Source: Methanolobus sp. (GTDB lineage: Archaea; Halobacteriota; Methanosarcinia; Methanosarcinales; Methanosarcinaceae). From it: a stretch of 54,002 nucleotides of DNA. A program made the translations under genes and the position numbers. The stretch spans positions 1 through 54,002 of the forward strand of contig NZ_JAUXNK010000052.1 of assembly GCF_030682845.1 (NCBI RefSeq), in the 5' to 3' direction. The notes below the pieces were generated by a model. The model had not been told where the DNA came from. It saw only the letters and a list, made by a program, of their open reading frames with translations, and ran no database searches. Shown piece by piece: positions 16,161-27,146 of the stretch (within the stretch, counting starts at the first letter, position 1; every line of letters begins with the position of its first letter).

Positions 16161-18581
16161 ATGGTTGATATACTATTCCTCAATTGTGGTCCGGAATGTC
16201 CTACCGAAATCATGGGAAGGCTTGTTGATAATGGTTATTCTGCATCTCTGCTGTCTCTGTCCAGCACAGATGCATCAAAAGCAATTGCCACGCAAAAGCC
16301 CGATATTATAATTTGTTCCTGTATAAATGGAACTTCAGATGCTGTCTTAGGTCGTATCGAAGAGGTTCTGCATGAAATCCCTGCTGCTGTGCTGTTTATT
16401 ATTGCAGGATCTGATGAACGTTTTTTTGCATGGCTTGGCACGAAGCGTCTCACAAATTACATTAAAGAGCCATTCACAGGCAGTGAACTATCCCATGCGA
16501 TCAATCTTCTTATGAGATCTCATGATGCAGAACTTGCTTTAAGGGTGCAGGAGAGCAATTATCAGGGCCAGGTCGATAACTCCTCAAGCAGGTTCTCCCG
16601 GCATGAGGACGTAGCTCACGATGCAATCCTAAAGAGTGTTACAGAGGAATCTCTGAAGGAGGTTGAGGAGAGATTCCGTATGATCACAGAGAACATCGAT
16701 GATGTCATCTGGACAATGGACAGGGAAGGAAATTTCCTTTATGTGAGTCCTTCCCAAACAAAACTGACCGGATATTCTCCGCAAGAGGCAATGCAAAAAC
16801 CCTTGAGGGATAAGTTAACTTTTCAATCATTCCAAAAGGTAAATGACAAAATAAATGTGTTCTTTGCAGATATGCAACAGGGTATCATGTCTTATTCCGC
16901 GAGTATGCTGGAGCTGGAGCAATACCGAAAAGATGGCTCTACTGTGTGGATAGATGTGAATGTATCTCCTATTTTTGATGATGCAGGAAATTTTCAATTC
17001 TTCCTGGGGGTTTCTCGCAACATTAGCGAGCGTAAGCAGTTTGAGGCTGAACTGAAGAAACAAAAGCATGTGCTTGGAACCATATTCGAACATGCGCCTT
17101 TCGCCATGCTGCTGGTCAATAGTGAAGGCAGGGTTGAGAGCATTAATCATGCAGGTGTTGAAGCAGTAGGAAAACAAAAGGAAGACATTCTGGGCTCACT
17201 TGGAGGTGCCGCCTTCTCATGTGTAAACTCATTTAAGGAGGGGGGATGTGGTGCAAGTGAGGGGTGTACCGATTGTGCTGTCAGGAATACGTTCACAGAA
17301 ACCTTCAATACGGGGAGGGTTTTCCACAAGGTCGAAGGCAATCTCAATATTGCCATGGATGGTGAGATATCCACGCGTCATCTGTTGATATCCACTGCGC
17401 GCATTGGTTTGAATGGCGACACCAATGTAATGTTAAGCCTGGATGATATTACTGAGAGCAAGAAGGCGCAGATGGTCCTGCAGGAAAGTAAGGAGCGCCT
17501 GGCAATATTATATGAGAACATGCCTGGCGGGACGCTTATAATAGGTCAGGATTATGTGATAGAGGATGTAAATTCCCGGACATGTGAGCTCACAGGCTAT
17601 AAGCGAGAAGAACTTATAGGGCAACTTTGCGATATATTATGTCCCAAGGGTTCTTATTCAAAGAAATGTCCTATCTGGGAAGAAGGCATGGGATGCTTCC
17701 AGGGGATGGACACTACTATCAAGTGCAGTGACGGCAGAAGAAATCCTATCATTAAGAACGCAACAAAAATATCAATTGAAGGAAAGACTTACATTCTTGA
17801 GAATTTCCAGGACATTTCCGGACAGAAAGAGGCTGAAGAAGCGCTGAACAGTGCGAAGATGGCTGCTGAAACAGCCAGCAAGATAAAAAGTGAATTCCTT
17901 GCCAGTATGAGCCATGAACTCAGGACCCCGCTCAATGCGGTCATCGGCTACTCAGATATGCTGCTTGAGGGGGCATTTGGGGAAATTAATGGCCAACAAG
18001 GGCGGTCCCTTGGGCACATACTGGCTGGCGGGAAGCACCTTCTGGAAGTTATCAATGACATTCTTGACCTCTCAAAAGTAGAATCCGGAAAGATGGAGCT
18101 ACATTGTGAGGATTTCTATGTCCATGATTTGCTAAGGAATGTGGGAAACATCGTCTCCTTGCTGGCAAAAAAGAAAAACATCTCTTTCTCGATCTCTGTC
18201 CAGCCGGAATCTCTCTGTGTGAATGCGGACAAAGTGCGCATGAAACAGATATTATATAATCTTGTCAGCAATGCAATAAAATTCACACCGGAAGATGGGT
18301 ATGTGCGCATAGATGCATGCGAAAGGGATGGCATGCTGGAACTTTCTGTGAGTGACAATGGAATTGGCATCTCGGAAGATGACCAGAATAACCTGTTCGT
18401 GCCTTTTTCCCAGATATATTCAGATACATCCCGGCACTACGATGGAACAGGGCTCGGACTTTCTCTTGTAAAGAAGTTTGTTGAAATGCATGATGGCGAT
18501 ATTACCTTTGAGAGTGAAACTGGAAAAGGCACTACATTCACTATCAGGATCCCTTTGAAAAGGCAACCTTCAGTGATATGA
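16161..18581 (+). CDS. Soluble PAS histidine kinase with pseudo-receiver and Cys-rich PAS domains
   Basis: This 806-residue protein begins with a receiver-like domain (1-120) that lacks the phospho-acceptor Asp (KPDIIICSCINGTSD), so it is a pseudo-receiver. Three PAS domains follow, at about 170-290, 295-430 and 440-555. The second holds a Cys cluster (C353 to C374, including GCGASEGCTDCAVRN); the third holds CPKGSYSKKCPIWEEGMGC (about 495-513). The core has SMSHELRTPLN with phospho-acceptor His585, N-box NLVSNAIKFTPED and G-box DGTGLGLSLVKK. There is no membrane helix. Its stop overlaps the next start (ATGATG at 18578), implying translational coupling with a solute-binding fragment. Confidence 0.93.
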   Translation: MVDILFLNCGPECPTEIMGRLVDNGYSASLLSLSSTDASKAIATQKPDIIICSCINGTSDAVLGRIEEVLHEIPAAVLFIIAGSDERFFAWLGTKRLTNYIKEPFTGSELSHAINLLMRSHDAELALRVQESNYQGQVDNSSSRFSRHEDVAHDAILKSVTEESLKEVEERFRMITENIDDVIWTMDREGNFLYVSPSQTKLTGYSPQEAMQKPLRDKLTFQSFQKVNDKINVFFADMQQGIMSYSASMLELEQYRKDGSTVWIDVNVSPIFDDAGNFQFFLGVSRNISERKQFEAELKKQKHVLGTIFEHAPFAMLLVNSEGRVESINHAGVEAVGKQKEDILGSLGGAAFSCVNSFKEGGCGASEGCTDCAVRNTFTETFNTGRVFHKVEGNLNIAMDGEISTRHLLISTARIGLNGDTNVMLSLDDITESKKAQMVLQESKERLAILYENMPGGTLIIGQDYVIEDVNSRTCELTGYKREELIGQLCDILCPKGSYSKKCPIWEEGMGCFQGMDTTIKCSDGRRNPIIKNATKISIEGKTYILENFQDISGQKEAEEALNSAKMAAETASKIKSEFLASMSHELRTPLNAVIGYSDMLLEGAFGEINGQQGRSLGHILAGGKHLLEVINDILDLSKVESGKMELHCEDFYVHDLLRNVGNIVSLLAKKKNISFSISVQPESLCVNADKVRMKQILYNLVSNAIKFTPEDGYVRIDACERDGMLELSVSDNGIGISEDDQNNLFVPFSQIYSDTSRHYDGTGLGLSLVKKFVEMHDGDITFESETGKGTTFTIRIPLKRQPSVI

Positions 18582-18883
18582 TGTTCCTGGAGGAATACCG
18601 TATCGGGGTAATCACGGATAATATCGCGATCCAGTATCTACTCGATATTGGCGTGAATCAAAGTCCGGTCGTACCCGAAAGCAACGTATCCTCGATCATT
18701 GGTGCGCTTGATAACGGTGAAATCGATCTCTGGGCATGTCCTGAGACTGCCGGCAGGTACTTCACCGAACAGGCAACCGGCTGGGAGGAATATGTCTACA
18801 TGAATCCTGTACAGGCGAATCTGTACTATAAGACCACGTACTACAGGTTGGTCACAGGGAAGCCTGATAGACAACAATTATAG
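18578..18883 (+). pseudogene. Fragment of a periplasmic solute-binding (SBP_bac_3-like) domain
   Basis: This 101-residue frame overlaps the kinase stop by 4 nt. It reads like the middle of a family-3 solute-binding domain: EEYRIGVITDNIAIQYLL, then SSIIGALDNGEIDLWACPET and AGRYFTEQATGWEEYVYM. There is no signal peptide, no first lobe and no typical C-terminal end (it stops after TGKPDRQQL), while family members have more than 200 residues. It may be a decayed remnant or a small cytosolic accessory translated with the kinase. The 4-nt overlap favours real translation; the truncated fold favours a remnant. Confidence 0.6.
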
Positions 18884-18908: not shown

Positions 18909-19547
18909 ATGACATCTGAAGACAATATTAATGGGCCTGCCATTTCTGGGAAGTCCGCTACTTTCTGCACACTGACAGAAGATACAGGTTCTACCCGAAG
19001 AAGGGATGTTATTATTGTAGGACTGCTAATCATATTCATTCTGGCATGGTCAATTTTCCTGATATACTATCCTCCGGAAGAGATCGTAGGGCATTTGGGA
19101 GTGCATAACACCTATCTGGTTGTTTTCCTGCTGGCTGCCATAGGTGGTGTATCTGCTTTCACTTCAACGTCCTTCTACACAGCATTGGTCACAATATCAC
19201 TGGGAGGAGTTAATCCGGTATACCTCGCACTTTTTGCAAGTGTCGGACTTACATTTGGAGATATTGTATTCTATGTTGTCGGCAAAAAAGGAAAACAATG
19301 TGTTCCCTCAAAGTACGGAAAACATATAGGCCGTTTTTTTCAGTTTATAAAAGATAGTGGTGACAAGAACATAGTTTTGTTGATATTTGTTTACTCCTTA
19401 ACTCCACTTCCCAGCGATATACTGGCAGTTGCGCTGGCATTCGCGGGCTTTCCCCTTAAGAAAATGGTCCCTCCGTTACTTGTAGGAAACTTTGTACTTG
19501 TACTTATACTGGCGGAACTTGCGATATATGGCTATCAGTTATTCTGA
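18909..19547 (+). CDS. DedA/VTT-domain membrane protein
   Basis: This 212-residue protein has a polar N-terminus and about five hydrophobic segments (VIIVGLLIIFILAWSIFLIY at about 34-53, then around 70-90, 95-125, 150-180 and 185-210). The VTT/SNARE-associated core appears as TLGDIVFYVVGKKG-like text (actual: GLTFGDIVFYVVGKKG) and a proline-bearing segment VYSLTPLPSDILAVALAFAG. Relatives are implicated in lipid scrambling and membrane homeostasis; the role here is inference. It starts 25 nt after the solute-binding fragment and may be in the same transcript. Confidence 0.88.
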   Translation: MTSEDNINGPAISGKSATFCTLTEDTGSTRRRDVIIVGLLIIFILAWSIFLIYYPPEEIVGHLGVHNTYLVVFLLAAIGGVSAFTSTSFYTALVTISLGGVNPVYLALFASVGLTFGDIVFYVVGKKGKQCVPSKYGKHIGRFFQFIKDSGDKNIVLLIFVYSLTPLPSDILAVALAFAGFPLKKMVPPLLVGNFVLVLILAELAIYGYQLF

Positions 19548-19674
19548 AGATATGAAAAAAAGATGCTAAATCTTACTAGGGGGACCGCACAATGGATCAG
19601 TATTAGAAGGCGGCATGGACAGGAGATGGTCGGATCTCACAGTAGAGTTATCAAAAATGAGTGTTGTAAGTGAG

Positions 19675-19793
19675 CTGGCAGCGATCCGTAGTTCCCGAAG
19701 ACTCGCGTACTTCAGTACAATATGGAACGCTGGAGGACTTATCTTCTGTGTACGGAAAGGGTACAGGAATTGCCCCGCCGCTATGGCCGCCAG
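19675..19793 (-). rRNA. rrf: 5S ribosomal RNA, unlinked and slightly divergent
   Basis: On the minus strand the sequence opens CTGGCGGCCATAGCGGCGGG and ends GATCGCTGCCAG, closing an 8-bp helix I (19786-19793 with 19675-19682; one G-U). Conserved archaeal 5S blocks are recognisable: GGCGGCCATAGCGG, CCTGTACCC, ACACAGAAGATAAG, CCAGCGTTCC, GTACTG and GGGAAC. The length, about 119 nt, is normal. Two departures stand out: loop C has CCGTACAC instead of the usual CCGAACAC, and helix II pairs GGCGGG with TCCTCC, giving one C-T mismatch and a G-U. No 16S or 23S gene is in the window. Protein-like frames across it are artefacts. Confidence 0.87.
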
Positions 19794-20135
19794 ATTCACT
19801 TATAATAGCGATGAAGGGAAGGGAAAGCAAGGGAAGATAAAGCCGAGGTATGGACTGGAACTTAAATGGGTTCTTTCGCCACCTTGAATGGTCTTCCATT
19901 GAAATCATTGGTTAAATACTTTACCTTCGATGTTCTTTATCACATTATATCTAATGCTGGATAACTGTAATGCTTTTATTATTACTGCCGCTGGGGTATG
20001 GTTATAGCACTTGGAAGTTACAACTCATATAATATTATTGTAAATATTAATATATTATTCCAGTGGAAATGAGGGGGTCACTGCTTGCTAAATGAATCCT
20101 TTTTTTAAATAAATCTCCTGTTGAACTCGATTAAA
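19794..20135. other. AT-rich intergenic stretch before IS relic
   Basis: This region lies upstream of the 5S gene on the minus strand and left of the IS end. It is AT-rich (for example around 20030-20060), with TATA-like tracts that could drive the 5S gene. No coding frame or tRNA is convincing. Confidence 0.5.
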
Positions 20136-21544
20136 CCGCCTTTCCGCAGATGTACTTTTATTTTTGGTAATTTCCGTACAAACTTGTAAATAGAGGCACT
20201 TGATATTGAATAATTGGTTATTATGAACATTACCACTAGCTCTCTTGATCATCATGGCATAGTTTCCGGAATTTTTGATGAAGTGCTGCCCAAAGTTGGG
20301 CAGCACAAGCTAGCGCATTCGCAGGTATTGAAAGCCATGATCCTCAATAGTCTTGGCTTCACAGACAGCCGATTGTATATGTATCTCAATACTTTGAGAC
20401 TATTCCCATTGAAAGGCTTCTAGGTCCTGGAATCAGTGCATCTGCTCTCAATGATGATGTTCTGGGCCGGACACTTGATAGTATCCATGCTGCCGATCCA
20501 ACTCAACTCTTTATGAAAATCGCTTTAAAAGTGATGGAAAAGATCAACATCAAAATTCAGCTTCTTCACTGTGATACCACAAACTTCAGTGTTTACGGAG
20601 ATTATGAAGACAGTAGTAATGGATCTACAATTGAGATTACTTATGGTCATGCCAAAGACAAAAGAGATGATTTGAAACGATTTGGACTTGGAATGATCAC
20701 AAATCAGTGTGGTATCCCGTTATTCGCAAAGGCTTATTCAGGTAACACTTCAGACAAAGAGAGCATAATCAAAGCTATGAAAAGACTTACAGAAAACATA
20801 ACATTTCCTGATGATGTTTATTATATCGCTGACAATGCCCTGTATTCTGAGGATAACGTTAAATCAATGGGAAAAGGCATGAAGTGGATCACAAGAGTTT
20901 CTTCAACATTGAATCTTTCTACGGAGCTATTGAGTTCAAATCTGAAATTCATTACTGGAGAAGATTCCCGCTATTCTTTCCATGAGACTTTCGCGAATTA
21001 TGCCAATATAAAACAAAAATGGGTTGTTGTTCATTCTATTGAAATGCAGAAACGAAAGGATGTAACCTTTGAGAAGAAGATTGAAAAACACATGCATAAA
21101 GCTCAGAAGGAACTCAAACATCTTAAGAGCATAGATTTTGCGTGTGAGGATGCTGCAAGATCATTTGTAGAAAGGTGGAAGCAGGAAAATACTTACTGTT
21201 CACTGGAAAAAGTACAGATATCTGCAGTTTCCAAAAAGCAAAATGTCAAAAGAGGAAGACCTCGGAAAGATGAAAAAAATCATCACTTGCTATGTAATTG
21301 ATGTTCAAGTAGCCATGAATGAAGAATTCATACAACATGAAGCAGAATATCTCGGAAGATTCATTGTCGCTAGCAATGACCTGAATATTGGTGCTGAAAG
21401 GTATCACAGAAGTAAGAGTAAATATGGAGTCAAATGTCCAAATGCAGATTGCAAATATGGATCTGATCAAAGAAAAGATTATTAGGATAATGGGAAAGAG
21501 CTGTGAAAAATACTATTTCTAAGGAGACATCTGCAGAAAGTAGG
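20136..21544 (+). mobile_element. Decayed IS1634-type insertion sequence
   Basis: A broken transposase gene lies between two imperfect inverted ends: CCGCCTTTCCGCAGATGT (20136-20153) and the complement of CCTACTTTCTGCAGATGT (21527-21544), matching at 15 of 18 positions. The 1.4-kb span is shorter than intact IS1634-type elements, which fits internal deletion. No clear target duplication was found, so the true outer boundaries may lie a few bases further out. Its last 37 nt (21503-21539) recur at 22888-22924. Confidence 0.75.
20214..21485 (+). pseudogene. IS1634-family transposase, frameshifted and internally deleted
   Basis: The N-terminus (MNITTSSLDHHGIVSGIFDE) is the DUF4277 start of IS1634 transposases. 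It reaches a stop near 20423, and reading resumes in another frame (LLGPGISASALNDDVLGRTL, then LHCDTTNFSVYGDY). The central catalytic part, frame 20513-21301, keeps DTTNFSVYG, FGLGMITNQCGIPLFAKAYS and YYIADNALYSEDN. Another shift occurs near the A-run at about 21274, after which the third frame gives VQVAMNEEFIQHEAEYLGRF. The segment that should follow (the conserved YREKW-type C-terminal region) is missing. It is not expected to be active. Confidence 0.88.
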
Positions 21545-21729
21545 ATTCAATAATATTTATGGGAAAGGAAATTGGTGATAATAGGAAGAAATAAACATAT
21601 ATGGAATTCATTTGATTGAAACTTCGAAAAAATCGTGATGTAGATATATAATTTGCTATAAATACCAACTGTTTCCTAATACTAGTCGTTGATACATGAT
21701 TTTTCAATTGTTTAATGGATGTGTTGCAA

Positions 21730-22005
21730 ATGAAACAACCATTGCTTGATGTTGTGTTAATATCAGACAAAAGAACGAAAGTTCTTCTAATCTCAAAAGA
21801 CGGGCCTCAAGAGATGCAATACTTCCTATCTTCACTCAATACTACCAGGCAGACATTACTGCCTCAGATAAGGGTACTTGAAGATCATCACCTTGTTAAT
21901 CACTACAGAGATACTTATGAATTAACAACTATTGGAAAACCAGTAGTTGGAGAGATGGCTCCTCTTTTAGATACTACAAATACTGTATTCACCCATTGCC
22001 GTTAA
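21730..22005 (+). CDS. Truncated HTH regulator, paralogue of the next gene
   Basis: This frame of about 91 residues starts MKQPLLDVVLISDKRTKVLL and aligns throughout with the first 90 residues of the following gene (SDKRTKVLLISKDGPQEM versus SEKRKDVLLFLQDGPKEM; LLPQIRVLEDHHLV versus LLPQMKMLKESHLI). It contains only the winged helix and stops before the DUF1724/FilR1 domain. The frame extends five codons upstream to 21715. It may be a decayed duplicate or a short DNA-binding protein that could interfere with its full-length neighbour. The gap to the next start is 12 nt. Confidence 0.7.
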   Translation: MKQPLLDVVLISDKRTKVLLISKDGPQEMQYFLSSLNTTRQTLLPQIRVLEDHHLVNHYRDTYELTTIGKPVVGEMAPLLDTTNTVFTHCR

Positions 22006-22017
22006 AATGGAGAACAA

Positions 22018-22803
22018 ATGAAAAAGACAATTGTTGAAATGCTGCTTGCATCCGAGAAGAGGAAAGACGTACTGTTGTTCTTACAGGACGGGCCAAAGGA
22101 AATGGAAGCACTCCTCAAGTCACTGAACACGAGCAGAACAGGGTTACTTCCCCAAATGAAAATGCTGAAAGAAAGTCACCTTATATATCAACATAGAGAC
22201 ACTTATCAACTGACAACAATTGGAAAATTAATCACTGCAGAAATGACATCTTTCCTGCGTGCCGTTGAAATGTATGGTGGAAATTATGAATATTTAGGAA
22301 CCCACAACATAGATTTTATTCCGGCACATCTTTTAAAGAAATTACCGGAAATTGGCCTTTGCAATATAATTGAAAGCACTATGTTGGATATGTTTGATTC
22401 GGAAATTGATTTTATTGAAAAAGCCATGAAATCGAAATACTGGTTCCAGGTCACCTCAATACTAGATCCTTTATTTCACGAGTTTTATATGCAGATGATA
22501 GATAACAATGTAGATGTATCAATGGTCATAAATCCGCAAGTATACAATAAGTTCAAGCTAAATCATTATAATGACTTCAAAGAGATCATTGATACCAAAC
22601 TAATCTCACTTTACTTATACCCTAAAGATCTGGAGTTCGTATCATTTATTTTAGCTGATGAATGTATCAACTTGAAACTATTAACCCATAAAAATGAATA
22701 TGACCTGAAAAAGATGATCATTTGCAATCCGGCAACTGTTGAGTGGGGGAAAGAGTTATTCGAATATTACAGGAAGAAGTCCACACTTATAATTGAGATT
22801 TAG
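22018..22803 (+). CDS. Winged-helix regulator with DUF1724 (FilR1-like) domain
   Basis: The 261-residue protein has an N-terminal winged helix (about 1-85: MLLASEKRKDVLLFLQDGPK; LLPQMKMLKESHLIYQHRDT). A C-terminal DUF1724 domain of the methanogen FilR1 family follows (about 110-255). Such regulators are abundant in Methanosarcinales and some control quorum-related or methyltransferase genes; the target here is unknown. ATG 22018 follows a GGAG-containing leader (GGAGAACAA). It is flanked on both sides by IS remnants and preceded by a truncated paralogue, suggesting local duplication in the island. Confidence 0.88.
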   Translation: MKKTIVEMLLASEKRKDVLLFLQDGPKEMEALLKSLNTSRTGLLPQMKMLKESHLIYQHRDTYQLTTIGKLITAEMTSFLRAVEMYGGNYEYLGTHNIDFIPAHLLKKLPEIGLCNIIESTMLDMFDSEIDFIEKAMKSKYWFQVTSILDPLFHEFYMQMIDNNVDVSMVINPQVYNKFKLNHYNDFKEIIDTKLISLYLYPKDLEFVSFILADECINLKLLTHKNEYDLKKMIICNPATVEWGKELFEYYRKKSTLIIEI

Positions 22804-22929
22804 GCTCTGTAGAAAAACTGTATCTTAATTTGAACTACAAGAGTTCACAGAAAGGACAGAGGATCATAAGGACCATGGGAACAAACGGTGAAAAATACTA
22901 TTTCTAAGGAGACATCTGCGGAAAATCGG
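22804..22929 (+). mobile_element. Solo 3' end of the same IS type
   Basis: Positions 22888-22924 repeat the last 37 nt of the IS relic (21503-21539) with one mismatch and continue into ACATCTGCGGAAAATCGG (22912-22929). The frame upstream also matches: transposase-like ending RTMGTNGEKYYF here versus RIMGKSCEKYYF in the relic. Only about 100 nt of element remain. The left boundary is uncertain. Confidence 0.65.
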
Positions 22930-23066
22930 CTTTATAGAAGTCTTAGTATTATCCATGTACTTAATGCCACACATTAATGGTTATTTATTTCGTGGCTTGC
23001 GTTTGGGAAAAAATAAAAACGTTTTCTCCCTGCAAAAGTCTCAATATTCAACAGCAGGAAATCAAT

Positions 23067-23243
23067 TTACTTTTCTAACGTCAGTGATTTGCCACAGCAT
23101 TCGAATCCTGGATGTTCAGAATCTGTTTCTCCAGGTTTAAGGGATTCTTTACCTTCCTTGAGTACCTGCAGCTCAATTCCGCAAGTTTCGCACATGTAAG
23201 TCTCCCCTTTCTTCATATCATGGCATGAAAGTTTATCTACCAT
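23067..23243 (-). CDS. Desulforedoxin-like small zinc/iron-binding protein
   Basis: This 58-residue frame starts MVDKLSCHDMKKGETYMCET and has CxxCG at residues 18-22 (CETCG) and CCGKSL at 49-54. That four-Cys arrangement is the one in desulforedoxin and desulfoferrodoxin N-domains (mononuclear FeCys4 or Zn). The loop between the Cys pairs is longer than in classical desulforedoxin (an insert such as ESLKPGETDSEHPGFE). A strong GGAGG site stands 7 nt upstream of the ATG (about 23251-23256). A redox or structural-zinc role is inferred from the motif. Confidence 0.8.
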   Translation of the reverse strand: MVDKLSCHDMKKGETYMCETCGIELQVLKEGKESLKPGETDSEHPGFECCGKSLTLEK

Positions 23244-23672
23244 TAACTAACCTCCCTAGAGTAGAACGAAACAGCGGTATTAATAAGTATTGGATCACAC
23301 AGCAATTACTCTGTCTCAGACCTGTTTCTGTTTGCTTTTTTGGAGTTGTGGAAAAACTCTCAAAATCAGGTGCATGAGAGTGAAAAGAGAGATAAGTATA
23401 ACTCGATAAAACCATTCATCCTGCCTTCTGCAAATGGCTTACAATTTTGCCAATTATCAGAGTCACATGGATTTGTCAATTGATCTGCCTTTCCGCAGAT
23501 AGAAGTGTTCCATGTGGTTGCAACTATTGATATATACCTTCCGGGAGCATTCCTGCAGAGCCGGGATTAGATCTACTATGGACCCCCTAAACAGAAGATC
23601 ATTCCTTCCAATTGTATGGTCGCCGCTTTTATTTAAGCATTTATGTTAAGTAGTGAGTCTACTTTCACCTTC
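23244..23672. other. Intergenic region with an IS-end-like motif
   Basis: The 429-nt region between the desulforedoxin-like gene and the CheB-CheR gene is AT-rich. It contains CTGCCTTTCCGCAGAT at 23487-23502, matching the left-end motif of the IS relic. No tRNA or coding frame is convincing. Confidence 0.55.
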
Positions 23673-26669
23673 TTATTCTCTGGCTATACGCTCGGTGGTC
23701 GCAACTGAATACACGTTACCATCCGCATCAATCAATGGGGTAGCTGTTAGCCACACATCTATGATCCGGCCATCTTTGGTGATCCTTTTGGTCAGATAAG
23801 GTTTCAGGATCTCAGCCTTACTAAGCCTCTTCAATATTTCCAAAGCTTCTTCCTTTTTTTGTTCCACTATCATGCTGCTGATGTTCATGGTCAGTGCCTC
23901 TTCTTCGCTCCAACCGTATATCTTCTCAGCAATCGGATTCCATGCAAGGATGCGACCTCCCATATCATGTAGTGTTATAGCATCGTTCGAGTCATTCACA
24001 ACTGCAGCCAGGCGGCGCAGTTTTTCGGTTTGCTTCTGAAATGTGAGCACTACCCCTCCAATGGTATTCTTTATAGTGCGATAGGGTCGCATGTTTAGAG
24101 TGTACCACTCAGCGCCAGGGATGCGGACTTCAATTTCCATAGGATTAAGGGTGCTCAGCACAGCTTTTATGTCCGATATCAGGTATTTGTAGCCTTGCAG
24201 TTTTAAAACAACATGCTCAATAGGCCGTCCCACATCTGTCGGGATCAGATGCATTACCTTTTTGATATCAGGAGTGAAACTCTGGATACGTAATTGATTG
24301 TCCACAATAATAATGCCCATACCCGTGGAAGCCAGTATGTGGCTTATATCTTCACTGGATTCTGACAGTTCCGCTACCTTGGACTGCAGCTGAGCATTGA
24401 CAGTGGACAATTCCTCGTTGAGAGATTGCAGTTCTTCTCTGGAGGTTTCCAGTTCCTCATTTGTAGATTGCATTTCCTCGTTCATGGATTGCATCTCTTC
24501 ATTGGAAGATGTGAGCTCTTCGTTGGATATCTCCAGCTGTTCATTAGAATTTTTGAGATATTCCGCCATGGTCCTCAGTTCTTCTTTGAGGGCTGCAACG
24601 TCTTCTTCATCAACGTCCTGGATATCAGCAACAATCTTCCCTTTTTTGCTCTGCCGAAGCTCTGAAGGTTCATCAAAAGTTACCAGGAACAGTCTTTGGT
24701 CAAAGAGTTCTTCCACAGGTCGCAATGTCAGATCAATAGTGGTAAAGTCACCGTTGGTCTTGACCCGAAGTCCTGAACGGACTATCTGCTCTTTATTGAC
24801 AACTACCCTGCTCAGGGCTATGGTCAATTCCTGCTGCAATCCATCACGGGCCATCTTCAGGATGTTGTAACCTGGTTCACCAGGAGGGGCTTCGAGATAC
24901 ATGCCAGTACGCCCATGAAAATAGAGAATTGTGCCGTGTTCGTTTATCAGCACACCTGCCGGGGCGTAATGTTGCAGCAACTTCCTTTCAGTCAGTTCAC
25001 GCAGTTGGAGTTTGTTATCAACGGAAAGCTTACCGGAAGGTTTGTCAGGAGGCAGCCTGGATACACTTCTTCCCTGGGGGGACGGAAAAAGTTTTGCTAC
25101 CGGGTAGTTGTATTGATCATTAAATGCCTTGCTTTGATACAGTTTTGACTGTCGGTCCAGCGTGTCAAAAAGGTACGGGAACTCTCCAATGCTCTCTGAA
25201 GAGCCAAGCAGAAGAAACCCTCCCGTGTTCAAAGCATAATGGAACATAGGAATTACCTTGTTCTGTATTTCCTTGTCCATATAGATCAGCAGGTTACGAC
25301 AACTTATCAGGTCAAGTTTGGAGAATGGCGGATCTTTGATCACATCGTGTTCTGAAAAGAGGATCATATCACGGATATTTTTCTGGATGGTATAAGTGTT
25401 GAGTTCTGGATCATGAGTGAAAAAACGCTCCAGCCTTTCAGGTGTGATATCATCGGAGATACTGGCATTATATACGCCTTTGCGGGCTTGTTCGATAGTT
25501 CTGATGTCAATATCTGTGGCAAATACCTGTACTTTGAAAGTACGCTTCAATTTGCTCATGTGCTCCGCAAGCAAGATTCCGACGGAGTATGCCTCTTCAC
25601 CTGTAGAGCAACCTACCACCCAGATACGTATGGCTGTATTCGCAGACTTACCATCAAAGAGATGTGGGATCACTTGCTCCTCAAGAGAGTCAAATACCTT
25701 GGGATTGCGGAAAAAATTTGTGACATTGATAAGAAGGTCATGGAAGAGTGCCTTAATTTCCTCCGGTTTTTGCTGCAGATAATTCGCATACCCTTCTATA
25801 AGCTTGATGTCATTGACAGCCATGCGACGCCTTATACGACGATCTATTGTTTTCTGCTTATATTGGGAAAAGTCGTGTCCTGTCCGGGCGAGCAACTGAT
25901 TGAAGATTATCTTCATAGCTCTTTGGTCATTTGATAACGGATGGGCTTTTTCCCCAAATATATGGGATACATAATCACGGAGTTGAGCTGGCATCTCACC
26001 CGGTTTTAGGATATAATCCACCAGACCTGTATCGATAGCACTTAATGGCATGCCGTTGTATTCACTTGATTCAGGATCCTGTACCATTACCATACCGCCT
26101 TCAGCCTTGATAGCCCTCACCCCCTGTGTGCCATCATTGCCGGTGCCCGAGAGTAAAATGCCAATGGATCGCTCCTGCTGGTCCGAGGCCAGAGAGCGGA
26201 GGAAGAAATCGATCGGTGTACGATGGCCACGCACCTCTGCAGGCTCCACCAAATGCAGCATGCCCTCCATAATGATCATATCCATGTTGGGTGGAATGAC
26301 ATATACACAATCTGGCTTGACCGTCATCTCGTCCTTGACATCATAGACCTGCATCTTTGTATAACGACTGAGGATATCGGAAAGCATACTTTTGTAGTCG
26401 GGTGACATGTGCTGCACCAGGACAAAGGCCATGCCCATTTTGGTATCTGCGGGAATCGCTAAAAAGAATTCTTCGAAAGCACCCAGCCCGCCGGCCGACG
26501 CACCAATGCCTACAACGGGGAATTTCTCAGAGAGAGGAAGATCTACACTTTCAACTGAAGCGGGCTGGGCAATGACAGGTATTTCTGCTGTAGTATCTGC
26601 CTGTTCCTCTGTTGAGGATTGCGTTTTCTTTTTGCTTGTAACTTTCTTATTTGTAGCCGTAGTATTCAC
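23673..26669 (-). CDS. CheB-CheR-PAS fusion protein (methylesterase/methyltransferase sensor)
   Basis: The order is a polar leader (1-48), then CheB methylesterase (about 50-240) with the triad Ser58 (GIGASAGG), His87 (LVQHMSP) and Asp179 (GTGNDG). CheR follows (about 245-530), with SAM motif VVGCSTGEEAYSVG and KLDLISCRNLLIYM. Next come a PAS-like region (about 570-690), a long Ser/Glu/Asn-rich coiled coil (about 690-775, repeated NEEMQS/NEELET units) and two C-terminal PAS domains (about 780-890, 890-998). There is no kinase core. Free-standing CheB and CheR adjust chemoreceptor methylation, but no receptor or Che gene is nearby. Such fusions often work with two-component kinases; this is inference. 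The 998-residue frame is intact. Confidence 0.93.
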   Translation of the reverse strand: MNTTATNKKVTSKKKTQSSTEEQADTTAEIPVIAQPASVESVDLPLSEKFPVVGIGASAGGLGAFEEFFLAIPADTKMGMAFVLVQHMSPDYKSMLSDILSRYTKMQVYDVKDEMTVKPDCVYVIPPNMDMIIMEGMLHLVEPAEVRGHRTPIDFFLRSLASDQQERSIGILLSGTGNDGTQGVRAIKAEGGMVMVQDPESSEYNGMPLSAIDTGLVDYILKPGEMPAQLRDYVSHIFGEKAHPLSNDQRAMKIIFNQLLARTGHDFSQYKQKTIDRRIRRRMAVNDIKLIEGYANYLQQKPEEIKALFHDLLINVTNFFRNPKVFDSLEEQVIPHLFDGKSANTAIRIWVVGCSTGEEAYSVGILLAEHMSKLKRTFKVQVFATDIDIRTIEQARKGVYNASISDDITPERLERFFTHDPELNTYTIQKNIRDMILFSEHDVIKDPPFSKLDLISCRNLLIYMDKEIQNKVIPMFHYALNTGGFLLLGSSESIGEFPYLFDTLDRQSKLYQSKAFNDQYNYPVAKLFPSPQGRSVSRLPPDKPSGKLSVDNKLQLRELTERKLLQHYAPAGVLINEHGTILYFHGRTGMYLEAPPGEPGYNILKMARDGLQQELTIALSRVVVNKEQIVRSGLRVKTNGDFTTIDLTLRPVEELFDQRLFLVTFDEPSELRQSKKGKIVADIQDVDEEDVAALKEELRTMAEYLKNSNEQLEISNEELTSSNEEMQSMNEEMQSTNEELETSREELQSLNEELSTVNAQLQSKVAELSESSEDISHILASTGMGIIIVDNQLRIQSFTPDIKKVMHLIPTDVGRPIEHVVLKLQGYKYLISDIKAVLSTLNPMEIEVRIPGAEWYTLNMRPYRTIKNTIGGVVLTFQKQTEKLRRLAAVVNDSNDAITLHDMGGRILAWNPIAEKIYGWSEEEALTMNISSMIVEQKKEEALEILKRLSKAEILKPYLTKRITKDGRIIDVWLTATPLIDADGNVYSVATTERIARE

Positions 26670-26780
26670 ACACCTTCAATGATTTTCAGAGCGAATGCAA
26701 CTCGCGAGCAATATGGACGTCAGTGTTATTATGATACTATTTACTGGCTTCCTATTTAGTAATCTTGTTTATCTTTCTTA

Positions 26781-27146
26781 TATTCCGCAGATGTCTTCAA
26801 AAAACAGATATTTCCTTTTGACCCGGACCTTTGCATACTTACTACAATATTTGCCCTGATAAATGCTATTATCTGTGAGACTGTCGGAAAAGGTGATTCT
26901 TATGGAAATTAAAAATAATTATCGCAACAATAGCCAAGAAAACACCAATTCCAATTTTCTTCAAAGTAGTTATTGATACTGATTCTATAATTGTTCATGA
27001 CTATTTAACGCTGCGCGTATAGCAGAAATTGTCTTGTTCGGGACTTTTCCGACAGTCTCATCTGTACTGTTATTATCACTAATAGTCGATAAATACCTGC
27101 AATCCAGATAATTCCGAAAATTCTCAAGATATCTGCGGAAAGTCGG
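26781..27146. mobile_element. IS-end pair enclosing a nested MITE
   Basis: TATTCCGCAGATGTCTT (26781-26797) and the opposing AAGATATCTGCGGAAAGTCG (27126-27145) are inverted copies of the IS1634-type end motif. They delimit about 365 nt without a transposase. A second element with different ends lies inside (26876-27060). This looks like an older deleted element into which a MITE later inserted. Confidence 0.55.
26876..27060. mobile_element. 185-bp MITE with perfect 17-bp terminal inverted repeats
   Basis: TGAGACTGTCGGAAAAG (26876-26892) is the exact reverse complement of CTTTTCCGACAGTCTCA (27044-27060). TCTG flanks both outer edges (26872-26875 and 27061-27064), consistent with a 4-bp target duplication; ATCTG is an alternative 5-bp reading. 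The interior is AT-rich and non-coding. No matching transposase is in the window, so it would depend on one elsewhere. Confidence 0.85.

Follow-up and report, generated by a model that had tools for sequence, protein, structure and literature searches.

The window examined here, a 54,002-nucleotide stretch of the genome of a Methanolobus species, carries a 5S rRNA gene that stands outside any rRNA operon, at the same place as an unlinked 5S gene in a sister species. On comparative grounds we consider it fairly likely that this gene is an inherited accessory 5S copy, probably still transcribed, that has come under relaxed constraint and entered early decay in this lineage. Alignment to the operons of the sister genome reveals the locus as an operon tail, made up of a BRE/TATA promoter-like element, a ruined tRNA-Cys, and a 5S gene with its precursor stem (Table 1).

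Table 1. Features of the unlinked 5S locus and its surroundings, in window coordinates.
Feature	Position	Strand	Evidence or remark
VTT/DedA-like membrane protein gene, conserved downstream neighbor	18909..19547	+	PF09335, 31.3 bits, just under the cut-off
5S precursor stem, 3' strand CTCACTTA	19667..19674	-	Identical to operonic flank
Unlinked 5S rRNA gene	19673..19794	-	RF00001 5S_rRNA (cmscan), 82.0 bits, E 5.7e-16, model 1-120, full length
5S position 75, U for C	19720..19720	-	Variable among relatives: C 34, T 10, G 3
5S position 61 (helix II), U for G	19734..19734	-	C.U mismatch with position 18
5S position 43 (loop C), U for A	19752..19752	-	A in each of the 47 other distinct 5S sequences of the alignment
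5S precursor stem, 5' strand TAAGTGAA	19795..19802	-	Pairs with CTCACTTA, which overlaps the 5S 3' end
tRNA-Cys remnant	19840..19886	-	Anticodon arm deleted, T arm mutated; aligned to the intact operonic tRNA-Cys of G026
Operon-spacer homologous block (23S processing stem to tRNA-Cys)	19896..19932	-	95% identity to operon, alignment, stem fold; upstream limit of homology
BRE/TATA promoter-like element AGGTAAAGTATTTAA	19912..19926	-	Same element ~44-48 nt before operonic tRNA-Cys across the genus
IS1634-family transposase fragment	20513..21301	+	NF033559, 177.6 bits; starts ~0.5 kb upstream of the 5S

An unlinked 5S gene in an assembly without its rRNA operons

The full-length covariance model match bore out the claim, made in a preliminary description of the sequence, of a complete 5S gene on the minus strand; the ends given there (19675 to 19793) were 1 to 2 nt off. 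The score of 82.0 bits, against a gathering score of 38, falls inside the range of the operonic 5S genes of the genus (76.6 to 92.6) and so is in itself no mark of a pseudogene. As had also been claimed, neither 16S nor 23S rRNA was found by Rfam scan within the window. No 23S gene lies within 3 kb upstream of the 5S, the end of the contig is not the cause, and the corresponding locus of the sister genome likewise lacks a 23S; the unlinked position is real. A chance match is excluded by the score, by synteny with an unlinked 5S in the complete sister genome, and by the homology of the flanks to an rRNA operon. The placement of the gene among IS debris holds on one side, where a broken IS1634-family transposase gene lies upstream; on the other side the VTT/DedA-like gene is intact.

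The genome is represented by a 2.87-Mb archaeal assembly in 110 contigs, which we compared with relatives from 26 species of one genus and with a phylum sample of 393 genomes that includes its own. The proposed covariance model search of window and genome recovered the window gene as the only 5S over threshold in the assembly, and the 16S and 23S models found neither rRNA in it. When the three rRNA models and the operon tail of the sister genome were searched against the whole genome, operonic 5S was detected only as 30 nt at two contig ends. Each of these contigs, C93 and C81, includes just the final 30 nt of an operonic-type 5S before it breaks off, and their terminal 141 bases are identical to each other. 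Since both stop at this point, at least two rRNA operons have been collapsed and lost from the assembly. The single-5S state of this genome is thus an assembly gap and not biology, and the unlinked 5S is extra to operon-linked copies in its own genome. The 30 nt match the operonic 5S of the sister genome and do not reach the three sites at which the window copy differs from it. The 141-base assembly overlap was also considered as an argument that the operonic and unlinked 5S must differ; it was rejected, as the longest possible shared stretch (about 130 to 139 nt) is shorter than 141. A scan of a wider collection of genome contigs for CCGTACACAGAAGATAAG gave one match, in a Roizmanbacteria record, with no 5S at that spot. 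Where an assembly has lost its rRNA operons, its sole 5S may turn out to be a degenerate additional gene, which is unfit to serve as the 5S of the species.

A cassette shared with a sister species

The nearest relative at the 5S locus, G026, is a complete genome in a single contig of 3,072,769 bases. It has four 5S genes, three following a 23S and a tRNA-Cys (L081 to L083) and one without a 23S (L084). The last is collinear with the window: downstream in both lies the same DedA-like gene (protein 91% identical), and the AI-2E permeases on the opposite flank also correspond. The four G026 genes share one sequence, from which the window copy departs at three sites. Because the sister species shares the cassette at the same place, the comparison indicates that it was copied before the two species split and is not a recent break-off. 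The reading of the gene as an operon copy in decay, one of two offered in the preliminary description, comes close; the other, a specialized second 5S, is without positive support.

The surroundings have changed since. About 7 kb (approximately 20135 to 27146) between the 5S and the permeases is absent from the G026 locus, as judged from the synteny break. This insertion carries the IS1634 transposase fragment, two FilR1/HVO_A0261-type regulators, and a CheB-CheR-PAS protein. On the downstream side, a 101-aa open reading frame (18578 to 18883) is the remnant of a 669-aa gene that is intact in G026 (L123:8083-10092) and has here suffered an internal deletion of ~1.2 kb.

The operon tails L081 to L083 have the same promoter element, order, and 5S and represent the direct source of the cassette; unlike the window locus, they retain an intact tRNA-Cys and an upstream 23S. 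Homology to the operon starts immediately after the 23S processing stem's 3' strand, runs through GGTAAAGTATTTAACC, and ends at the 5S precursor stem. ARAGORN detected the tRNA-Cys in the operon and no tRNA at the unlinked loci. The precursor stem, complementary in relatives, forms 7 of 9 pairs here and 9 of 9 in many operons. Origin and structure of the cassette are established by these alignments.

The element GGTAAAGTATTTAA lies 44 to 48 nt 5' of tRNA-Cys in operons of the genus and is absent from the 23S-5S spacers that have no tRNA-Cys (L040, L087, and L091). It has the look of an archaeal BRE and TATA box. In Methanolobus psychrophilus, BRE/TATA elements are found ~19 to 22 nt from mapped starts; in that transcription start site study, 5S appears only as a blot control (PMC5378194). 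Among 107,974 positions of the window, a matrix built from the operons of other species gave its highest score to this site, a good rank that common descent alone would yield. The stronger argument is therefore that the promoter block was kept while the adjacent remnant and leader changed.

Unequal conservation within the cassette

Between the unlinked loci of the window and G026, the promoter block differs at 1 of 30 positions, the 5S at 3 of 122, the tRNA remnant plus leader at 21 of 74, and the upstream sequence at 20 of 209 (5S versus remnant, P = 1e-7; promoter versus remnant, P = 0.003; 5S versus upstream, P = 0.013). The tRNA remnant has thus changed far more than the promoter block and the 5S on either side of it. 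When the operon serves as outgroup and represents the ancestral state, all three 5S changes fall on the window lineage and none on that of G026. At half the upstream divergence, zero changes in G026 would be unlikely without constraint or gene conversion (P = 0.003), while three on the window branch are compatible with neutral drift (Poisson P = 0.16).

Such drift is what would be seen in a dead pseudogene, a cassette no longer transcribed in this species whose 5S is drifting freely. The locus has features of this kind: the truncated neighboring gene and the insertion upstream, a tRNA remnant with more derived changes than in G026 (13 versus 7), and 5S changes of which two of three lie at an invariant site and a paired site. 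We nevertheless consider a dead pseudogene unlikely, given that on the same branch the 5S changed far less than the remnant (3/122 versus 13/74, P = 0.0003), that the promoter element is unchanged from the operon version, and that the precursor stem remains mostly paired.

Substitutions at conserved 5S sites

The altered loop C and the C-T mismatch in helix II noted in the preliminary description are both present. Loop C contains CCGTACAC, so that GUAC stands in place of the GAAC conserved in the working copies of relatives. In the phylum sample, a 24-base pattern with U43 occurred only in this genome (0 of the 392 others), and the version with A occurred in 124. The helix II pair 18-61, a C.U mismatch here, covaries in relatives (C-G, 39; A-U, 5; U-G, 2; U-A, 1). 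The gene thus departs from a conserved loop C with GAAC and intact helices. Judged by descent and score it is a 5S; its GUAC loop and C.U pair give it a weaker claim to be a fully working one.

RNA folding predicts a drop in helix II pairing probability from 0.85 to 0.09, caused by G61U alone; such predictions, made for 5S in isolation, are unreliable (helix II values of ≤0.08 are obtained for 4 of 45 relatives as well) and serve as supporting evidence only. A43U may favor a register-shifted 5-bp hairpin, UGUAC/GUACA. The two changes should impair folding and assembly, so the product would probably compete poorly for a place in the 50S subunit and the gene would be at an early stage of decay.

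The same variants could belong to an ordinary 5S if they were species-wide and present, perhaps through gene conversion, in the operonic copies missing from the assembly. The visible operonic sequence is confined to the last 30 nt and covers none of the three sites, and the uniformity of the G026 copies illustrates that homogenization can occur. We judge this very unlikely all the same: every relative has A43, no other genome sampled has the U version, and an operonic gene would bear a cost from a C.U mismatch in a helix II pair that covaries.

It is highly improbable that adaptation explains the loop C and helix II changes and that they mark a specialized second 5S, one that yields a distinct ribosome or a regulatory RNA. 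The gene does have its own promoter-like element and a maintained position, and A43U makes the register-shifted hairpin possible; the variant, however, occurs in no second species, the orthologous copy of G026 is identical to the operonic copies there, and a broken pair and a lost invariant base resemble loss. We give hardly any credence to the related claim that transcripts of the unlinked gene are built into some of the ribosomes and that the altered loop C and helix II make the 50S of those ribosomes functionally distinct; if true, this would be natural archaeal 5S heterogeneity beyond sequence noise. A sequencing or assembly error at the variant sites, conceivable in a fragmented assembly with collapsed rRNA operons, has a negligible chance of being the explanation, the flanks being unique and diverging consistently from G026, and a chimera with operon reads being expected to make the sequence more, not less, like the operonic one.

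Unlinked and tandem 5S units in other genomes

A 23S lies upstream of every 5S in eight complete or near-complete genomes of the genus (G001, G002, G004, G005, G007, G008, G020, and G024). Another species, G013, has an unlinked 5S (L063/L124; C41:78973-79094) that is likewise single and without an adjacent 23S (the examined 906 bases upstream contain none); a promoter-like GGTAAACTATTTAT and a decayed tRNA-Cys-like stretch come before it. In contrast to the window copy, it lies at an unrelated genomic place and is identical to the operonic copies of its own genome. This cassette of G013 (G013:C41) occupies L124:8967-9106. G013 and G008 were rejected as exact empty sites for the window cassette: kinase, DedA-like, and permease genes adjoin there without a 5S, but the DedA-like gene is inverted.

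Operon tails elsewhere have similar parts. In the spacers of L081 to L083 and L033 to L077, a tRNA-Cys with a promoter-like element of its own separates 23S from 5S; in some euryarchaea, unlike this genus, tRNA-Cys lies downstream of the 5S (PMC8339473). At L038 (G003:C39) and L044 (G004), a single 23S is followed by tandem 5S genes; in G003 the second of these, behind the 23S-5S pair, has a promoter-like element and tRNA-Cys of its own and so repeats the promoter-tRNA-Cys-5S unit. In G036, a second 5S-like sequence follows an rRNA operon (L091:3499-3620); its 5' half is unrelated sequence, making it half pseudogene. The operon tail may be separately transcribed, and it seems to behave as a self-contained module, duplicated from time to time.

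Older literature already describes extra 5S genes of methanogens that are not linked to the operons. Methanococcus vannielii has such a gene outside its rRNA operons, beside tRNA-type sequence, as in the window; the window differs in having a 5S that has diverged at conserved sites and, as its tRNA-type sequence, the ruins of the tRNA-Cys that belongs to the operon itself. No specific account of additional 5S genes in the methanogens studied here came up in our literature searches. TACK archaea and Thermoplasma have unlinked rRNA genes, with 5S transcribed away from 16S and 23S (PMC8339473). There the unlinked 5S is the only arrangement, whereas the window 5S is an extra copy in genomes with linked operons.

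Proposed history of the locus

The accessory-copy reading that we favor would run as follows. An operon tail consisting of promoter, tRNA-Cys, and 5S was copied elsewhere before the split from G026. The TATA/BRE element would start a short transcript ~100 nt upstream of the 5S, which the precursor stem would allow to be trimmed. The product may once have been a supplementary 5S, interchangeable with the operonic one, and selection or gene conversion would have held the gene near the operonic sequence, as appears still to be the case in G026. In the window's species this constraint now seems relaxed, leaving a gene in early decay whose variant 5S probably competes poorly for the 50S subunit. 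Origin, structure, and relative conservation of the cassette follow from alignment; we infer that the gene is transcribed and its product processed and incorporated.

The locus illustrates how a stray 5S can arise and last, as a cassette that was copied elsewhere and survives the loss of its tRNA. At the same site, one copy equals the operon (G026) and the other is drifting (the window), a small natural experiment on the uniformity of duplicate rRNA genes.
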